In this document: in pieces, positions 826 through 10,572 of the stretch | Layout of the letters: every line of letters begins with the position of its first letter | Numbering within the stretch: the first letter of the stretch is position 1 | DNA from: Flavobacteriales bacterium | GTDB lineage: Bacteria; Bacteroidota; Bacteroidia; Flavobacteriales; UBA1820 | Length of the DNA stretch: 32,394 nucleotides | Reading direction: 5' to 3' | Assembly (NCBI GenBank): GCA_017537565.1 | Contig: JAFYKQ010000046.1 | Span: forward strand, 1 to 32,394 | Notes under the pieces: generated by a model | The model's database searches: none | What the model was told of the DNA's origin: nothing | Seen by the model: only the letters and a program-made list of their open reading frames with translations | Position numbers and translations under genes: made by a program

Positions 826-2670
826 TTAAAGTTTCATATAGTGTATGGCTCCACCCATAGTAGTTACTATAAGAGCCTCCTGCCCTACGGGATATACACA
901 GGTTATAAGCGATGACGAGAAACGATGACACCACAGCGTCTCTCCTGTCTTTTTATCCAGACAGTAAACCTTGCCGTTGCCAGTAGGAATAAATGCTTTG
1001 GTGTCATTGACAGTGATACGTGTAGGGCCGTATTCTGGTCCCATTCCTATATTGGCACGCCATAGTTCTTTATATGTATCTACCGTAGCGTCTATTGCTA
1101 TGATATAGTCATTGATACTCTTTAGGTATAGAACACTGCCATCTGGTTCGGCACCCAATGATTCGCGACCGTTAGGTTTTTTGGTAGCCCACACACGATG
1201 TCCGTCTTTTTCATCAAAACAGTACAGATTATAATCTGAACTCTGGGCATAGATACGTCCGCCATATGACACAGGCCAAGTCGCTCCAGGAGAGAAATAA
1301 CGGTTCAATCCAGGTGCAAATTTCCAAGCCAGCGTACCGTCCTTTTTATTGATAGCATTAAATTCTGCCGCCCAAGAGCCTATACCTACCACGTTTTTAC
1401 CTATCGCTGGACGTGCCTCCATATAACCATTTATGCCTTCGTACTGCCACAACAGTTTTCCTCCTACTGCATCAAAAGCATAGAAACGTCCCTTACCCCC
1501 AGCCACATACATCGTGTCATTCTCTATGGCAGGAGTAGTCAATATAGGATAGTCTGTCATATGTTTCCACACCAGTTTTCCCTTGCGTGCAGACACACAA
1601 TACACACCACCATCTGTCGAAGTGAAGTAGATATTTTTATCGTAATACACAGGTTCTGAATATATCTTATCCCCCGTAGCAAATGTCCATAGGTATTTTC
1701 CTGTCTTTGCGTCCAATGCGCGTAATTCACCCAGTGTATTGGTAAAGTAAACAACTTTACCCTCCTGTATAACACCCGATGCTATATCGCTATGGTCTTG
1801 TACGTGCCAAAGCTGTGTTATGCGAGACGTACGGGCATTATCGGCCGTATAGTCTTGGCGGGCAGGGCGAGGAGTTGCTGCCGCATCAAATTTTTTAAGA
1901 GTAAGCGTAGCCCAAGCCTCACGAGGAGCCTCATCACAAGGACGACGTTCTACCACATCTACCTTTCCATTCTCTATCGTAAAGATAGTGTAACCCCCAC
2001 ATTTTTCTTTTGTACGCAATGTAGAACGGCATAGGAAGCCTGGTATTCCCTCAAAATCTGTCGCAGAATTGACGTGATAGTGTCCTGCTATGACAAACTG
2101 TATGTTGCGTGTTTTGAGCAGGTCTATTATTTGGTCGGCATTGGCTATGGCAGTCAATGTAAGTGGTGAATGGCACACAAATACCACAGGTGTATCCTCT
2201 GGTGTTTCTTTAAGATTTTTTGCCAGCCATTCTATGTCTTCACGTGGAGCCTGGCAAGGTCCCATACGCATATATGGGCCAGATGATATCCCTAGGAACA
2301 ACACCCCGTCGTGCATATAGCGGAACTGGCTGCCACCCATCACTTTGTTAAATGTAGTGCAACCGCTTTCACTCCAGTTGGTATCGTGGTTACCTGGCAC
2401 AAAAAGCAATGGTTTTTTATTGATTTCCAGTTCTTTTTTTACAGCCATTATCTCTTCATCGGTACCAAATTCTGTTATATCCCCCGCTATGATGATAAAT
2501 TCTATATCGCTCTGGGAGTTGATATCTTCCATAACTGCACGCAAGTCTGCCGATGCCGAAGCATAAGCCCCTAGGTGAGTGTCTGCCAATACAGCAAATT
2601 TGATTTTTCCCTCCTGTGCCTGTAGCATAAGTGCACACAACAGGAATAATGATAGTAAAAGTCTTTTCAT
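826..2670 (-). CDS. Secreted calcineurin-like metallophosphoesterase fused to a PQQ-type beta-propeller (copy 2)
   Basis: The 614-residue product starts with a signal peptide ending near LQAQE (residue 20). Residues 24-200 carry the ordered metal-binding motifs of calcineurin-like phosphoesterases: DTH (30-32), GD (63-64), GNHD (93-96), a His at 167 and GHYH (196-199). All expected ligands are present, so hydrolysis of a phosphoester is plausible; the substrate is unknown. From about residue 285 to the end, repeated blades of the form ALDAKTGKYLW and GGVYCVSARKGKLVW indicate a PQQ/YVTN-type beta-propeller, probably for binding or scaffolding. It lies 13 bases after its paralogue (2684-4543) and is surely co-transcribed with it. 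The family assignment is strong; its role is inferred only. Confidence 0.88.
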   Translation of the reverse strand: MKRLLLSLFLLCALMLQAQEGKIKFAVLADTHLGAYASASADLRAVMEDINSQSDIEFIIIAGDITEFGTDEEIMAVKKELEINKKPLLFVPGNHDTNWSESGCTTFNKVMGGSQFRYMHDGVLFLGISSGPYMRMGPCQAPREDIEWLAKNLKETPEDTPVVFVCHSPLTLTAIANADQIIDLLKTRNIQFVIAGHYHVNSATDFEGIPGFLCRSTLRTKEKCGGYTIFTIENGKVDVVERRPCDEAPREAWATLTLKKFDAAATPRPARQDYTADNARTSRITQLWHVQDHSDIASGVIQEGKVVYFTNTLGELRALDAKTGKYLWTFATGDKIYSEPVYYDKNIYFTSTDGGVYCVSARKGKLVWKHMTDYPILTTPAIENDTMYVAGGKGRFYAFDAVGGKLLWQYEGINGYMEARPAIGKNVVGIGSWAAEFNAINKKDGTLAWKFAPGLNRYFSPGATWPVSYGGRIYAQSSDYNLYCFDEKDGHRVWATKKPNGRESLGAEPDGSVLYLKSINDYIIAIDATVDTYKELWRANIGMGPEYGPTRITVNDTKAFIPTGNGKVYCLDKKTGETLWCHRFSSSLITCVYPVGQEALIVTTMGGAIHYMKL

Positions 2671-2683
2671 ATTTATCTATTGT

Positions 2684-4543
2684 TTAGTTTTCTGTGTAAC
2701 TTATACATACTATCTTACCGTCCATAGTAGATGCTACGACTGTCTTTTCGTCCAATGGCATTATATGATTTATAACGGTATTTGATAGTTTTTTTGCCCA
2801 GATGACACGACTGCCATCACGACTCACTGCATACACCTTACCTATGCTCGATGGAACAAATACGGCATTTGAATTACTCATAATAGGAGCCGGTGCTAAA
2901 TCCATATCCTGGTCATTGGGTAGAGGACATTTCCATACTATCTTACAAGTATCTGCCACAGCATCTACTGCTACCAGTTCATTGGTAAGCATAGTCTTGA
3001 CATATAGTTCTTTTCCGTCCAATGATATACCTTGGCTTTCACGTCCATTAGGTTCTTTGGAGAACCATATCTCTTCTCCTGTGTTTTTATCCAATGCTCG
3101 TGTAGCGCGTTCGGGGGTGGTGATAAATACTTTATCTCCCGATATCACTGGCCAGCACGCCGCAGCCGAATACATACGGCTACCCGTATTGTTCCACTTC
3201 CAAACCAACGTACCATCTTTTCTATCCAGCGCATAGAACTCATTACCCCAAGAGCCTATGTAAACTTTCTCGTCATCTGCCACAGCACGAGCCTCTATAA
3301 ATCCTTTCACTCCGTCAAATGTCCACTTTCTATCCCCACTCATAAGGTCTATGGCATAGAACTCTCCTGCCGATGAGCCTACATACACCACTCCTTCCTC
3401 TACCAGCGGGCAAGCCACTATACCTTTTCCCGTAGGGTGTACCCATATAAGACGTCCGTTTTTGGCATTGAGGCAATAAACATTACCATCTGTAGAGGCA
3501 CATACCACACGTCCTGCACTATATGCCGGGAAAGAATATATACGTCCACCTGTCTTGTAGCTCCACACATCACCTCCCGTACGAGCATATATAGATTTTA
3601 TCTCTCCCGCTGCCGTAGCATAGAAAAGACGTGTGCCATCACTTGCAAATCCACTACCTATATCGGCCGTTTCTTGTTTTTCCCACACGGTAGTAGCATT
3701 AGGATATTTTTCATTAAGAGAATAGTCTGGACGGGTAGTCTGTATGGAAGGGTCAAAAGGTTTCATATCAACCTCTGCCCACACTTTGCCATCTTTACCT
3801 CCACTCTCGTGGTTGCGTACAGTAAGATGCATAGTAGTAGTATCTATCGTTATGATGTTATACCCCACCACTTTACTAGGAGGTGTGCTACGCAATGTAC
3901 TACGCCCCACTATGGCAGGAACTCCGTCATAGTTTTTAAGATTATCTGTATGCCAATGCCCTGCCAGAGTAAGCTGTATGTTTCCTTTTTTAAGAACATC
4001 ATAGACTTCTGCTACATTGGATAGAGAGGCGTCCATAGGGTTGTGGTTGGTGTAGATGATAGGCATACCATCTGGTGTTGCAGATATAAGGCTATCCAGC
4101 CAAATGATAGACTCGCGTGGCACCTGTGCCATACCCATACGCATATTGGGGCCCGATGAAGTCCCACAGAAGAGTATCCCGTGAGACTCAAAAGCAAAGT
4201 CTGTACCACCAAATATACGTGCAAAACTATTGCAACCGCTCTCACTCCATTTGGTATCGTGGTTTCCTGGCACTATGTAATATGGCACGTCCAGTTCTTC
4301 AAAAATCTCGTGGGCTGCTTCCAGTTCCCAGTCTGCGCCAAATTCTGTTACGTCTCCCGCCATAATGACAAATTCTATATCATCACGAGAGTTGATATCA
4401 TCTACCGTCTTTTTAAGGTCTTCCATAGAAGACTTCCCACTTATATGGGTATCGGTAAGAAGAGCAAATGAAAATTTAGGATTATTTCCTCCACATAGCA
4501 CTACCGAGAGGAACAACATAGAAAATAATAAAATACGTCTCAT
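2684..4543 (-). CDS. Secreted calcineurin-like metallophosphoesterase fused to a PQQ-type beta-propeller (copy 1)
   Basis: This 619-residue protein is the first gene of a two-gene operon and a diverged tandem paralogue of the next gene. An N-terminal hydrophobic segment (residues 3-17, ending LCGG) targets it for export; the Cys at 17 is a poor lipobox, so I do not call it a lipoprotein. Phosphoesterase motifs are intact: DTH (31-33), GD (63-64), GNHD (93-96), NHNP near 167 and GHWH near 197. Propeller blades with the pattern LNAKNGRLIWVHPTG fill the C-terminal half. The pair shares domain order and local motifs (SGPxMRMG, NGRESxG), so it arose by duplication of the whole fusion gene. Its promoter region faces a Nudix-type regulator, which may control it. 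Confidence 0.88.
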   Translation of the reverse strand: MRRILLFSMLFLSVVLCGGNNPKFSFALLTDTHISGKSSMEDLKKTVDDINSRDDIEFVIMAGDVTEFGADWELEAAHEIFEELDVPYYIVPGNHDTKWSESGCNSFARIFGGTDFAFESHGILFCGTSSGPNMRMGMAQVPRESIIWLDSLISATPDGMPIIYTNHNPMDASLSNVAEVYDVLKKGNIQLTLAGHWHTDNLKNYDGVPAIVGRSTLRSTPPSKVVGYNIITIDTTTMHLTVRNHESGGKDGKVWAEVDMKPFDPSIQTTRPDYSLNEKYPNATTVWEKQETADIGSGFASDGTRLFYATAAGEIKSIYARTGGDVWSYKTGGRIYSFPAYSAGRVVCASTDGNVYCLNAKNGRLIWVHPTGKGIVACPLVEEGVVYVGSSAGEFYAIDLMSGDRKWTFDGVKGFIEARAVADDEKVYIGSWGNEFYALDRKDGTLVWKWNNTGSRMYSAAACWPVISGDKVFITTPERATRALDKNTGEEIWFSKEPNGRESQGISLDGKELYVKTMLTNELVAVDAVADTCKIVWKCPLPNDQDMDLAPAPIMSNSNAVFVPSSIGKVYAVSRDGSRVIWAKKLSNTVINHIMPLDEKTVVASTMDGKIVCISYTEN

Positions 4544-4553
4544 AATATATAGT

Positions 4554-4591
4554 GATAAAAATTATCGTTAATATGTGTCAAAAATACACAT
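4554..4591 (-). promoter_or_regulatory. Promoter of the phosphoesterase operon with overlapping inverted repeats
   Basis: On the minus strand TATTTTTG (plus 4579-4586) matches TAnnTTTG, with a TTG 17 bases upstream. An inverted repeat ATGTGT-N7-ACACAT (4573-4578 and 4586-4591) brackets the -7 box. A second repeat, GATAA-N3-TTATC (4554-4566), lies between it and the start codon. Both are good positions for a repressor operator. That a regulator binds here is inference. Confidence 0.5.
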
Positions 4592-4663
4592 TTTAGTTAT
4601 TTCCAACCATAATAATTGTGAATTATACATCAATTTTTTTTAGTTTTTGTTATAGTTTAATAA

Positions 4664-4671
4664 TATATTTG
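4664..4671 (+). promoter_or_regulatory. -7 element of the Nudix regulator gene
   Basis: TATATTTG matches TAnnTTTG and lies 30 bases before the ATG at 4702. T-rich sequence stands in the -33 region, but the nearest exact TTTG is too close. The box lies downstream of an earlier in-frame ATG at 4618, which argues against that start. Confidence 0.6.
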
Positions 4672-4701
4672 CAGGCACACATATACACCTATCGTTATAT
4701 C

Positions 4702-5403
4702 ATGACACGCGAAGACATTAAAGACTATTTTAACGTGGCCATTTCTGTATCTATGGTCATATTTGCTTTTGATGGGGAAAAGTTACGTATCCTTATCCAA
4801 CGCCGCGACGAAGACCCATTTAATGGCGCCTGGCAGTTACCATCACGTTTTGTACGCCCCAACGAAAGCCTGGAACTAAACGCCAAGATGCTTCTGGAAG
4901 AGACTATACCTATGACAGAAACGATAGACTCTTATTCAGAACAGCTAAATGCATTTGGTAAGGTATATCGTAATCCTCTGGGACGTGTAGTAAATGTAGG
5001 GTTCTATTGCATCGTGAAAATGACAGACGAAGACCGCCGTATGGCAGAACAGAAAGGCATGATGTGGGCTGCCTATACCGAAATCCCAGACTTGGCATTT
5101 GACCACAACGAGATAATAGACTACGCCAAACAGCGTCTTAAACGCCGTTTCAAACGCCGTCCAGTGGGATTCTCTCTACTACCAAAAGAGTTTACCCTCA
5201 CACAGTTGCAGATACTGTATGAAGGAGCCCTCAATAAAAAATTTGACAAGCGAAATTTCCGTAAGAAGGTATTTAATTCGGCTCTACTTATAGACCTGGA
5301 TAAAACGATAGAGACATCATATGGTAAAGTATCCAAACTATACCGTTTTGACGAAGACAAATATGAGAAAATGTCCCTCAAAGGATATGACTTCTTGTTC
5401 TAA
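4702..5403 (+). CDS. NrtR/AraR-type transcriptional regulator: Nudix domain plus winged helix
   Basis: I place the start at ATG 4702 (MTREDIKDYF), giving 233 residues. The frame is open back to 4618, but that stretch contains the promoter. Residues 12-140 form a Nudix-like fold; residues about 150-233 (FSLLPKEFTLTQLQILYE and after) match the C-terminal winged helix of NrtR-family regulators. The Nudix box is degenerate: Arg at the position of the first Gly, Lys-Met in place of Arg-Glu, and one residue missing, though Glu66-Glu67 remain. This fits a ligand sensor and not a working hydrolase. Known relatives sense nucleotide-sugar-like or sugar ligands (NrtR, Bacteroides AraR). It diverges from the phosphoesterase/propeller operon, its likeliest target. 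A terminator begins at its stop codon. Confidence 0.85.
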   Translation: MTREDIKDYFNVAISVSMVIFAFDGEKLRILIQRRDEDPFNGAWQLPSRFVRPNESLELNAKMLLEETIPMTETIDSYSEQLNAFGKVYRNPLGRVVNVGFYCIVKMTDEDRRMAEQKGMMWAAYTEIPDLAFDHNEIIDYAKQRLKRRFKRRPVGFSLLPKEFTLTQLQILYEGALNKKFDKRNFRKKVFNSALLIDLDKTIETSYGKVSKLYRFDEDKYEKMSLKGYDFLF

Positions 5404-9275: not shown

Positions 9276-9309
9276 ACGCCAGAGCCCTGGGGCTCTGGCG
9301 TTTTTTTTG
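9276..9309 (+). terminator. Rho-independent terminator of groESL
   Basis: A 12-bp perfect stem (9276-9287 with 9290-9301, core CGCCAGAGCC) is followed by eight T. It lies 25 bases after the groEL stop. Confidence 0.92.
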
Positions 9310-9325
9310 CATAGCAAAAAAAATT

Positions 9326-9357
9326 TTTGGCACACATCACTACATTTACTACATTTG
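9326..9357 (+). promoter_or_regulatory. Consensus promoter of the alkaline phosphatase gene
   Basis: TTTG (9326-9329), 20 bases, then TACATTTG (9350-9357): a full match to the Bacteroidetes consensus. Transcription should start near 9364, so translation must start downstream of that. Confidence 0.8.
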
Positions 9358-9384
9358 CTATCAAATCACAAACAATTATTTACA

Positions 9385-10572
9385 CTGAAAAATATCAGAT
9401 TTATACTCCTTGCACTTGCAACTATCCTAGTGGCTTCTTGCGCTCCAGAAAAGAAAGAGCCACACGCACAGAACGTCATCTACCTTATAGGTGACGGTAT
9501 GGGATTTGGTGCGGTATCTTCCCTTCTTCTTTCACAAGATTCTCTCACAGGTTTTGAAAAAGCTCCTGTGATAGGCCTTTCAGAAACTCAATCTGCCAAC
9601 AACCACGTTACAGACTCTCCTGCTGGAGGTTCGGCATTGGCTTGTGGTACTCGTGTTAAAAACGGCGTCCTAGGTCTAGACCCTGTGGACAGCACACATC
9701 TTACCAGCATACTGGAAAAAGCACAGGTAATGGGCAAAAAGACAGGCATAGTCGTTAACACTACCCTTACCGAAGCTACTCCTGCTGCGTTCTATGCAAA
9801 TGTCAAATCTCGTTCTATGAGCTATGAAATCGCCCGCCAATTCACAGAAAGCGGTGTAGATGTAGCCATAGGTGCAGGTCTTAGTGCGTTTATAAATCGT
9901 CCAGACTCTCTAGACCTTACTCGTGTACTTATAGAAGAAAAAGGATATGACGTGTACCTAGACTGGAAGAGTGTTCTTAACTCTACATCAGAAAAATTTG
10001 TAGGCATACTTTCTATGGGAGATGTACACCGTCGTAACAAACCTACTACTGCAAAACCAGGTGCTGCCGCAGGCGATGAAGTATGTCTAGCTGCCAAACT
10101 AGCTGCCGATGCTGCCGACCAAGCAGACACTACTATATTCTCTGAACCAGACCTTTATCTGGAAAAAGCTACTGCCAAAGCTCTTACAGCTCTTGAAAAG
10201 AACGCTCCAAACGGTTTCTTCCTAATGATAGAAAGTGCTATCATAGACGGCTATGGTCACAACAATGACAGCGATGGTATGATAGAAGAGATGCAGGAAT
10301 TTGACCGCACATTGCAGATGTTGGTACAGTATGTAAATGCTCACCCTGGAACACTGCTAGTAGTTACTGCCGACCACGAGACAGGTGGCACAGGTGTAGG
10401 ATACAAAGGCCACAAAGTGGGTGAAAAAGCAGACGTAAGTCTTACATTCAGCACCAAGGGCCATACAGGAACTGTTGTTCCTATCTTTGCTTATGGTGAA
10501 GGAGCCGAAAAATTCTCGGGCATAATGAAAAACAGAGATGTGCCTGGTAAAATAGAAGCTCTTATAAAATAA
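9385..10572 (+). CDS. Alkaline phosphatase, lipoprotein, apparent CTG start
   Basis: Alkaline phosphatase superfamily: NVIYLIGDGMGFG with a metal-binding Asp, VTDSPAGGSALACG holding the Ser nucleophile after Asp, an Asp/His pair in DGYGHNND, and TADHETGG. It hydrolyses phosphomonoesters outside the cytoplasm. The frame is open from an ATG at 9307, but that ATG lies in the groEL terminator and upstream of the promoter. After the predicted transcript start the frame has no ATG, GTG or TTG before the signal peptide. Reading from CTG 9385 gives (M)KNIRFILLALATILVASC, a complete lipoprotein signal with lipobox VASC and Cys19. The product would be 395 residues. The enzyme call is firm; the CTG start is inference and a base error is possible. 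Confidence 0.85.
   Translation: MKNIRFILLALATILVASCAPEKKEPHAQNVIYLIGDGMGFGAVSSLLLSQDSLTGFEKAPVIGLSETQSANNHVTDSPAGGSALACGTRVKNGVLGLDPVDSTHLTSILEKAQVMGKKTGIVVNTTLTEATPAAFYANVKSRSMSYEIARQFTESGVDVAIGAGLSAFINRPDSLDLTRVLIEEKGYDVYLDWKSVLNSTSEKFVGILSMGDVHRRNKPTTAKPGAAAGDEVCLAAKLAADAADQADTTIFSEPDLYLEKATAKALTALEKNAPNGFFLMIESAIIDGYGHNNDSDGMIEEMQEFDRTLQMLVQYVNAHPGTLLVVTADHETGGTGVGYKGHKVGEKADVSLTFSTKGHTGTVVPIFAYGEGAEKFSGIMKNRDVPGKIEALIK

Follow-up and report, generated by a model that had tools for sequence, protein, structure and literature searches.

A contig from a small gut-type Flavobacteriales genome (G000; 1.71 Mb, 97% complete) encodes a Nudix-type regulator next to two putatively secreted phosphoesterases fused to propeller domains, and raises the question of what this regulator controls and through which DNA element. 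The contig (JAFYKQ010000046.1, C42 in our set), analysed over its full 32,394 nucleotides, is called the window here. Judged from sequence, the regulator is probably an NrtR/AraR-family repressor that switches the phosphoesterase operon through a palindrome on its promoter, with the operon as one target of a small multi-target regulon.

An operator-like palindrome on the phosphoesterase promoter

The start codons of the regulator and of the first fusion gene (PPEA) diverge across a gap of 158 bp. A first-pass annotation of this DNA had placed these starts back to back (4702, plus strand; 4543, minus strand) and had seen ATGTGT-N7-ACACAT bracketing the -7 box of the operon; both observations were confirmed (Table 1). 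The Bacteroidota -7 consensus is TAnnTTTG. On the minus strand the palindrome (ATGTGT CAAAAAT ACACAT) reads GTG-TATTTTTG-ACAC, i.e., the -7 box is embedded in it. The motif occurs once in the window, where 0 of 100 shuffles reach as much, and once in the whole genome, where the reversed pattern, used as the control for palindrome counts, has no occurrence.

The core, GTGT-N7-ACAC, recurs in the operator of BtAraR (BT0354; PDB 5bs6/5dd4/5deq), the Bacteroides arabinose repressor. Its 27-bp crystal operator carries GTGT at bases 7-10 and ACAC at bases 18-21 (Table 2 of PMC4666351), and its authors report that K179, R180, N181 and K184 contact the operator and that these contacts define the GTGT motif. 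A putative AraR/NrtR-type operator on the phosphoesterase promoter is thus well supported by the match to a solved complex.

Two further repeats in the gap had been noted earlier, and both are present. GATAA-N3-TTATC (0.05 expected in the window) was rejected as an element of the system because it is absent from the nearest relative, G002. ACACAT, at 4677-4682, 3' of the regulator -7 box, is a lone half site with no GTGT 7 bp before it.

The regulator is of the NrtR/AraR kind

The mechanical open reading frame of the regulator opens at GTG 4618; because this codon precedes the regulator -7 box, ATG 4702 is the likely start. The protein has an N-terminal Nudix-like domain and a C-terminal winged helix, as the NrtR family demands (Pfam NUDIX, 6.5e-6; NrtR_WHD, 6.8e-21; AraR_C, 6.7e-10). 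Its best PDB sequence match is BtAraR (5bs6, E 3.5e-41), its predicted model matches 5bs6 with a TM of 0.80 and 36% identity, and its 9 best fold matches are all AraR or NrtR structures. Pfam, the BtAraR match and the fold agree with the family placement of the first-pass annotation, and on these sequence grounds the protein is a further member of the NrtR/AraR kind.

The recognition helix carries a segment, DKRNFRK, that is identical to the DNA-reading helix of BtAraR. Mapped via the PDB-match alignment, the window protein has the same residues at K179, R180, N181 and K184, and also at D178 and R183. DKRN is invariant in a 13-sequence alignment and occurs in all 33 rows of the clade described below, where K184 corresponds to K or R, and R183 to Q in one member (L014). 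The divergent regulator is therefore supported as the right kind of protein for binding the palindrome. The AraR/NrtR-type operator and the identical reading helix speak for the earlier proposal that it acts on the operon; that the window regulator binds the palindrome and represses the operon is what we infer from them.

The Nudix signature is impaired (S-R replaces G47-G48 of BtAraR, and the REUXEE region shows changes), so the domain is taken as a sensor rather than a hydrolase. In the pocket, the arabinose-binding R34, R86 and H131 of BtAraR are kept as R, R and H, and F36 is replaced by E. The likeness to BtAraR thus extends to domain order, fold, reading helix, operator and these three pocket residues. 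The window regulator differs from BtAraR in its separate clade, in the pocket changes at F36 and G47-G48, and in the wing, where K204-R205 is G-K. Among those neighbours of the regulator that carry an annotation in the four genomes of the genus, no arabinose catabolism genes were recognised.

Fold and family are shared with Shewanella NrtR (3gz5/3gz6), the ADP-ribose sensor of NAD genes, from which the window regulator differs at the contact residues R98, N43 and K76 (L, E and T here, mapped through BtAraR). No NAD genes were recognised among the candidate targets, and the score against the NCBIfam equivalog for the ADPR-responsive repressor (102.7 bits) is below its cut-off of 400. Given these different contact residues, we did not adopt an ADP-ribose or NAD reading. 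Our guess is that the ligand is sugar-like rather than ADP-ribose; an amino sugar or sugar phosphate might serve as effector. XylR (BT0791; PMC3878776), an NrtR-family xylose regulator, shares family and phylum with the window regulator.

The phosphoesterase/propeller operon

Both fusion proteins contain Metallophos (PF00149) and PQQ_2 domains above the Pfam cut-offs, and their N-termini, judged by eye, resemble signal peptides. Residues D31, H33, D64, N94, H95, H167, H196 and H198 (of the DxH, GD, GNH, H and GHxH elements) are invariant in 11 of 11 homologues (alignment A2). They are presumably the metal ligands of this family. The PPEA model has a mean pLDDT of 87.6, and its top fold matches are BamB propellers. 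Both domains are thus shared with known groups, the BamB/PQQ-like propeller proteins and the calcineurin-like phosphoesterases, from which PPEA and PPEB differ in the fusion of the two in one putatively secreted protein. Among the titles listed from one open-licence library, none concerns such a fusion or the regulator clade.

The family was found in only 6 of 60 genomes (own genome included, E <= 1e-40), namely the four members of the genus, G020 and G055. The best regulator match in G020 (L017) is outside the window clade in the tree, and that in G055 (E 4.7e-20) is unplaced. Further phosphoesterase/propeller copies or pieces occur in G000 (C17:18978, C58:5 and C112:17), G001 (C7), G002 (C3) and G003 (C143). 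In G001 and G002, one of them adjoins a regulator-like gene and an acyltransferase-like/deacetylase run. Within the window, an alkaline-phosphatase-family protein is encoded at 9307-10572, directly after groESL.

Table 1. Features of the locus (window positions) and intergenic GTGT-N7-ACAC sites elsewhere in G000 (contig:position).
Feature	Position	Strand	Basis	Counterpart in relatives
PPEA, first metallophosphoesterase/PQQ-type propeller fusion, 619 aa, putatively secreted	2684..4543	-	Pfam, alignment, model	
PPEB, second metallophosphoesterase/PQQ-type propeller fusion, 614 aa, putatively secreted, 13 bp 3' of PPEA	826..2670	-	Pfam, alignment	
Nudix-domain winged-helix regulator, NrtR/AraR family, unnamed clade found in Flavobacteriales, 233 aa	4702..5403	+	Pfam, PDB match, fold, tree	
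Recognition helix segment DKRNFRK, residues 182-188, identical to BtAraR DNA-reading helix	5245..5265	+	Alignment	
Putative operator (PPEA site) ATGTGT-N7-ACACAT, core GTGT-N7-ACAC, exact	4573..4591	.	Sequence; BtAraR operator match; core kept in G002	Kept G002, not G001
-7 box TATTTTTG of phosphoesterase operon, inside operator	4579..4586 (read 4586-4579)	-	Sequence	
-7 box TATATTTG of regulator promoter	4664..4671	+	Sequence	
GATAA-N3-TTATC, not counted in system	4554..4566	.	Sequence; 0.05 expected in window	
Methylmalonyl-CoA mutase small subunit site	C43:11615			Kept G002, G001
Site between kinase-MurQ-GHL10-transporter-AnmK-dehydrogenase run and GH3 gene	C112:14771			Kept G002
OsmC-region site	C71:1291			Kept G002, G001
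DnaB-like gene site	C33:1939			Kept G002
MFS-like transporter site	C97:27226			Kept G002
Seventh intergenic site	C112:1399			Kept in neither G002 nor G001

Regulator and operon in the genus

Four genomes of the genus were compared (G000 itself, G001, G002 and G003), with site conservation weighed by flank identity, arm matches (out of 8) and spacer matches (out of 7). Divergent adjacency of regulator and operon is kept in two of the four (G000, G003). A cation-efflux gene intervenes in G001. G002 carries the operon on contig C32 (PPEA 90% identical) and the regulator on contig C4 (94%). The contig ends there lie 1,745 bp 5' of the regulator, with another open frame in between, and 309 bp from PPEA; the two would thus be at least 2 kb apart, and a divergent pair linked across the contig gap at that distance is possible. 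On the 3' side of the regulator, BrkB, LytTR, GroES and GroEL genes are kept in G002 and G003, and in G001 BrkB follows before the contig ends.

The repeat at the operon is likewise kept in two of the four genomes, here G000 and G002: in G002, the closest genome, all 8 arm positions are intact at a flank identity of 0.62, where the regulator is not adjacent. It is lost in G001 (arms 4/8) and G003. Separation of the two genes in relatives, or loss of the repeat, was to refute the first-pass proposal, and on both counts the outcome is mixed. A chance feature of AT-rich promoter DNA might be missing from relatives in just this way, and its 8-base core is not enriched genome-wide. We nevertheless consider chance a very improbable source of the 19-bp palindrome, given that it is unique in the genome against a control of 0, is centred on the -7 box, and has its core arms fully kept in G002 amid diverged flanks.

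The first-pass annotation had proposed a dedicated local switch, in which the regulator would repress its own gene as well as the phosphoesterase operon, with a product of these enzymes as its ligand. The divergent layout in G000 and G003 and the operator on the operon fit such a switch, as does a one-mismatch site just 3' of the regulator -7 box in G003. Against it stand the separate contigs of G002 and the interrupted pair of G001, and clade members in genomes that lack the phosphoesterase family. Judged by eye, the enzymes appear to be exported; their action would be extracytoplasmic, with the sensor in the cytoplasm, and nothing found points to a phosphoesterase product as ligand. Self-repression, too, was not borne out. 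Apart from the operator of the operon, no exact GTGT-N7-ACAC occurs within 160 bp upstream of the regulator in any of the four genomes. The best scores in this region (160-200 bp) are 6/8 in G000 and G002 and 7/8 in G001 (at -96) and G003 (at -31, just after the -7 box). Self-regulation in the genus was rejected because there is no exact own site and the one-mismatch level is common in random window stretches (of 2000 stretches of 160 bases, 162 have a best score of 7, and 173 of 7 or 8). A dedicated switch is distinctly unlikely, and the phosphoesterase operon looks like a lineage-restricted part of a small regulon with several targets rather than the private partner of its neighbour.

The regulator clade across the order

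Within the order (395 genomes, among them those of the window genus), 247 genomes have some regulator match (E <= 0.001). In a tree of 56 rows, the window protein is in a clade of 33 rows (support 100/100). BtAraR lies elsewhere in the tree, with four f6 rows (L018, L019, L021 and L022; 100/98), and is represented by its aligned part only, on a long branch. The clade is spread over several families and has members in genomes without the phosphoesterase family, which itself is confined to 6 of 60.

Besides the window protein the clade has 32 members, and in 6 of them (L012, L013, L014, L015, L066 and L067) GTGT-N7-ACAC occurs 20-37 bp before the regulator's own ATG. All six are from f8 or f14 genomes and none is from the genus, giving 6/29 outside it. 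Three of the sites surround an exact TAnnTTTG box and three a near form. A first-order Markov null gave a mean of 0.06 and a maximum of 2 in 1000 runs, and the reversed control 0/32.

These six sites bear on a further explanation, that the palindrome is real and read by another dimeric regulator, e.g., a Crp-like protein. Many regulators bind short palindromes, and some GTGT-N7-ACAC places, such as the OsmC one, have their nearest -7 box some 40 bp away. This explanation is unlikely, as the half site and odd spacing agree with BtAraR but differ from the Bacteroides Crp motif TATGTTnTAnAACATA, and orthologous regulators have the motif before their own genes.

In G058, the orthologue L042 is among genes for thiolase, thioesterase, 3-hydroxyacyl-CoA dehydrogenase and enoyl-CoA hydratase, inside an acyl-CoA/phenylacetate-type run, with AGTGT-N7-ACACT just 5' of the start; L044 (G034) is alike by eye. 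The targets of the regulator thus probably differ between lineages.

Wider candidate sites in the genus

Gene calls for the genome-wide site lists were mechanical, and the non-coding fraction of the window (0.118) was used as a stand-in for that of the genome. GTGT-N7-ACAC is not enriched genome-wide over the reversed control (18 vs 33 in G000, 19 vs 22 in G001 and 20 vs 21 in G002). By our own reading, 7 of the 18 sites in G000 and 9 of the 20 in G002 are intergenic. This share exceeds the non-coding fraction (binomial P 0.003 and 0.0002, respectively), in contrast to the comparison with the reversed control, of which 15 of the 33 occurrences were examined and 2 are intergenic (Fisher P 0.13 for G000 alone, 0.06 for both pooled). 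The intergenic bias is suggestive, and enrichment was not accepted because it is not significant against this control.

Six of the seven intergenic G000 sites have a same-place counterpart in G002; the G001 comparison covered four of the seven (mutase, OsmC, PPEA and C112:1399). Conservation is weak evidence around the mutase, OsmC and DnaB sites, where G000 and G002 are 84-90% identical, and at the MFS site, which is in nearly identical DNA. It is telling at PPEA (flank 0.62, arms 8/8), at the kinase-GH3 promoter (flank 0.74, arms 8/8, spacer 2/7) and for the mutase site against G001 (identity 0.70, arms 8/8, spacer 3/7). A further telling case (flank 0.52-0.58, arms 7/8) is 3' of the -7 box of an acyltransferase-like gene that heads a deacetylase-GH9 run, with GTGT-N7-ACAC in G001 and G002, 7/8 in G000 and diverged spacers. 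G001 and G002 also have a site at aspartate ammonia-lyase in common, and in G001 a lipoprotein-like gene with a DUF4015 domain has an exact GTGTANNTTTGACAC on its 5' side. A one-mismatch match, GTGTACGTTTGACAA, which G000, G001 and G002 share unchanged, was dropped as lying inside a gene that we take to be ribosomal-protein-S12-like.

The names AnmK, MurQ, aspartate ammonia-lyase, GH3, GHL10, GH9, deacetylase and OsmC are above curated Pfam or NCBIfam cut-offs. AmpG, NagK, NagZ and mutase small subunit are NCBIfam matches below cut-off, and the mutase and MFS folds pass Pfam. Presumptive names are used for the DnaB-like gene, the MFS transporter on C97 and the acyltransferase-like gene, which has no Pfam match.

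Locus L262 (G000 C112:2000-16500) contains a single run of genes for a NagK-like kinase, MurQ, GHL10, an AmpG-type MFS transporter, AnmK and a large dehydrogenase of GlcD/GlpC-like type, from which the NagZ-like GH3 gene diverges. The arrangement recurs in G002 (L253/L278) and partly in G001 (L277), and appears to bring an almost full murein-recycling set together at a single locus. The OsmC neighbourhood (L115, L123 and L058) has a strongly conserved stretch, TTTAGTTTTTCATAGTTATAGTTTTTAGGTTTG, 3' of the GTGT-N7-ACAC site and -7 box. No tRNA was found there, and the stretch is possibly a small RNA or leader.

A paralogue in sister lineages

A related pattern, GTGTA-N5-TACAC, exceeds its reversed control in G023 (13 vs 5), G050 (18 vs 4), G004 (10 vs 1) and G019 (5 vs 1); counts in G006 (1 vs 3) and G373 (1 vs 1) are low. 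Many genes flanking these sites are, by eye, for starch, glycogen or glycolysis functions. A paralogue of the family with sites of this type beside it is seen in f8/f14 genomes, G004 and G019. Because of these adjoining sites and flanking genes, the enrichment is not credited to the window clade. No such paralogue is available in the window genus, as each of its four genomes has one NrtR-family match (E <= 0.001); some GTGT-N7-ACAC sites of the genus could be relics.

A second NrtR-type clade (L120, L121 and L122) has glycolysis and maltose/amylase-like genes as neighbours, together with GTGTA-N5-TACAC or similar sites, and G004, G019, G023 and G050 have such sites 5' of glycogen-phosphorylase-, gapA-, pgk- and MFS-like genes. 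These gene names, given from sequence, are presumptive. Control of a glycolysis/glycogen regulon by this clade is possible.

Proposed mechanism and its meaning

In the mechanism that we favour, the Nudix domain would form the effector pocket, and each DKRN-bearing helix of a regulator dimer would read one GTGT half of the palindrome. As the -7 box lies mid-palindrome, the bound regulator would block RNA polymerase and keep the phosphoesterase/propeller operon off. A small effector would then swing the DNA-binding domains apart and turn the operon on, a relief of repression borrowed from BtAraR.

Several observations weigh against a repressor with this operator and a wider target set. The operator at the operon is missing from half of the genus, and the wing pair of BtAraR is changed. 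GTGT-N7-ACAC is absent from 26 of the 32 clade upstream regions, including those of the seven nearest non-genus relatives (L006-L011 and L065), as well as, leaving aside the operator of the operon itself, from before the regulator throughout the genus. Its genome-wide counts do not exceed the control, and the G002 pair may still be linked across its contig gap. No site is present at the mutase promoter of G003; among 12 genomes (one of the genus), only G003 and G004 gave a match to the small subunit at E <= 1e-60, and neither promoter has a site (best 6/8).

We advance only tentatively the broader idea that one NrtR-family protein acts in the genus as a multi-target regulator with a single effector, perhaps an amino sugar or its phosphate. 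It would join scavenging of cell-wall amino sugars (NagK-like kinase, MurQ, AmpG-type transporter, AnmK and NagZ-like GH3), a polysaccharide-processing operon, an MFS transporter, methylmalonyl-CoA mutase and the lineage-restricted, putatively secreted phosphoesterases. MurR and AmpR are known controls of murein recycling, and if the idea is true, this control would be unlike either.

Binding is directly testable, since a solved complex has a matching operator core. Within the genus, the range of targets may extend beyond the phosphoesterase finding and be of greater interest than it. If the wider set of sites is confirmed, murein recycling and methylmalonyl-CoA mutase would be the candidate genes that point to the effector, and an unnamed clade of Nudix-type regulators in several Flavobacteriales families would gain a function.

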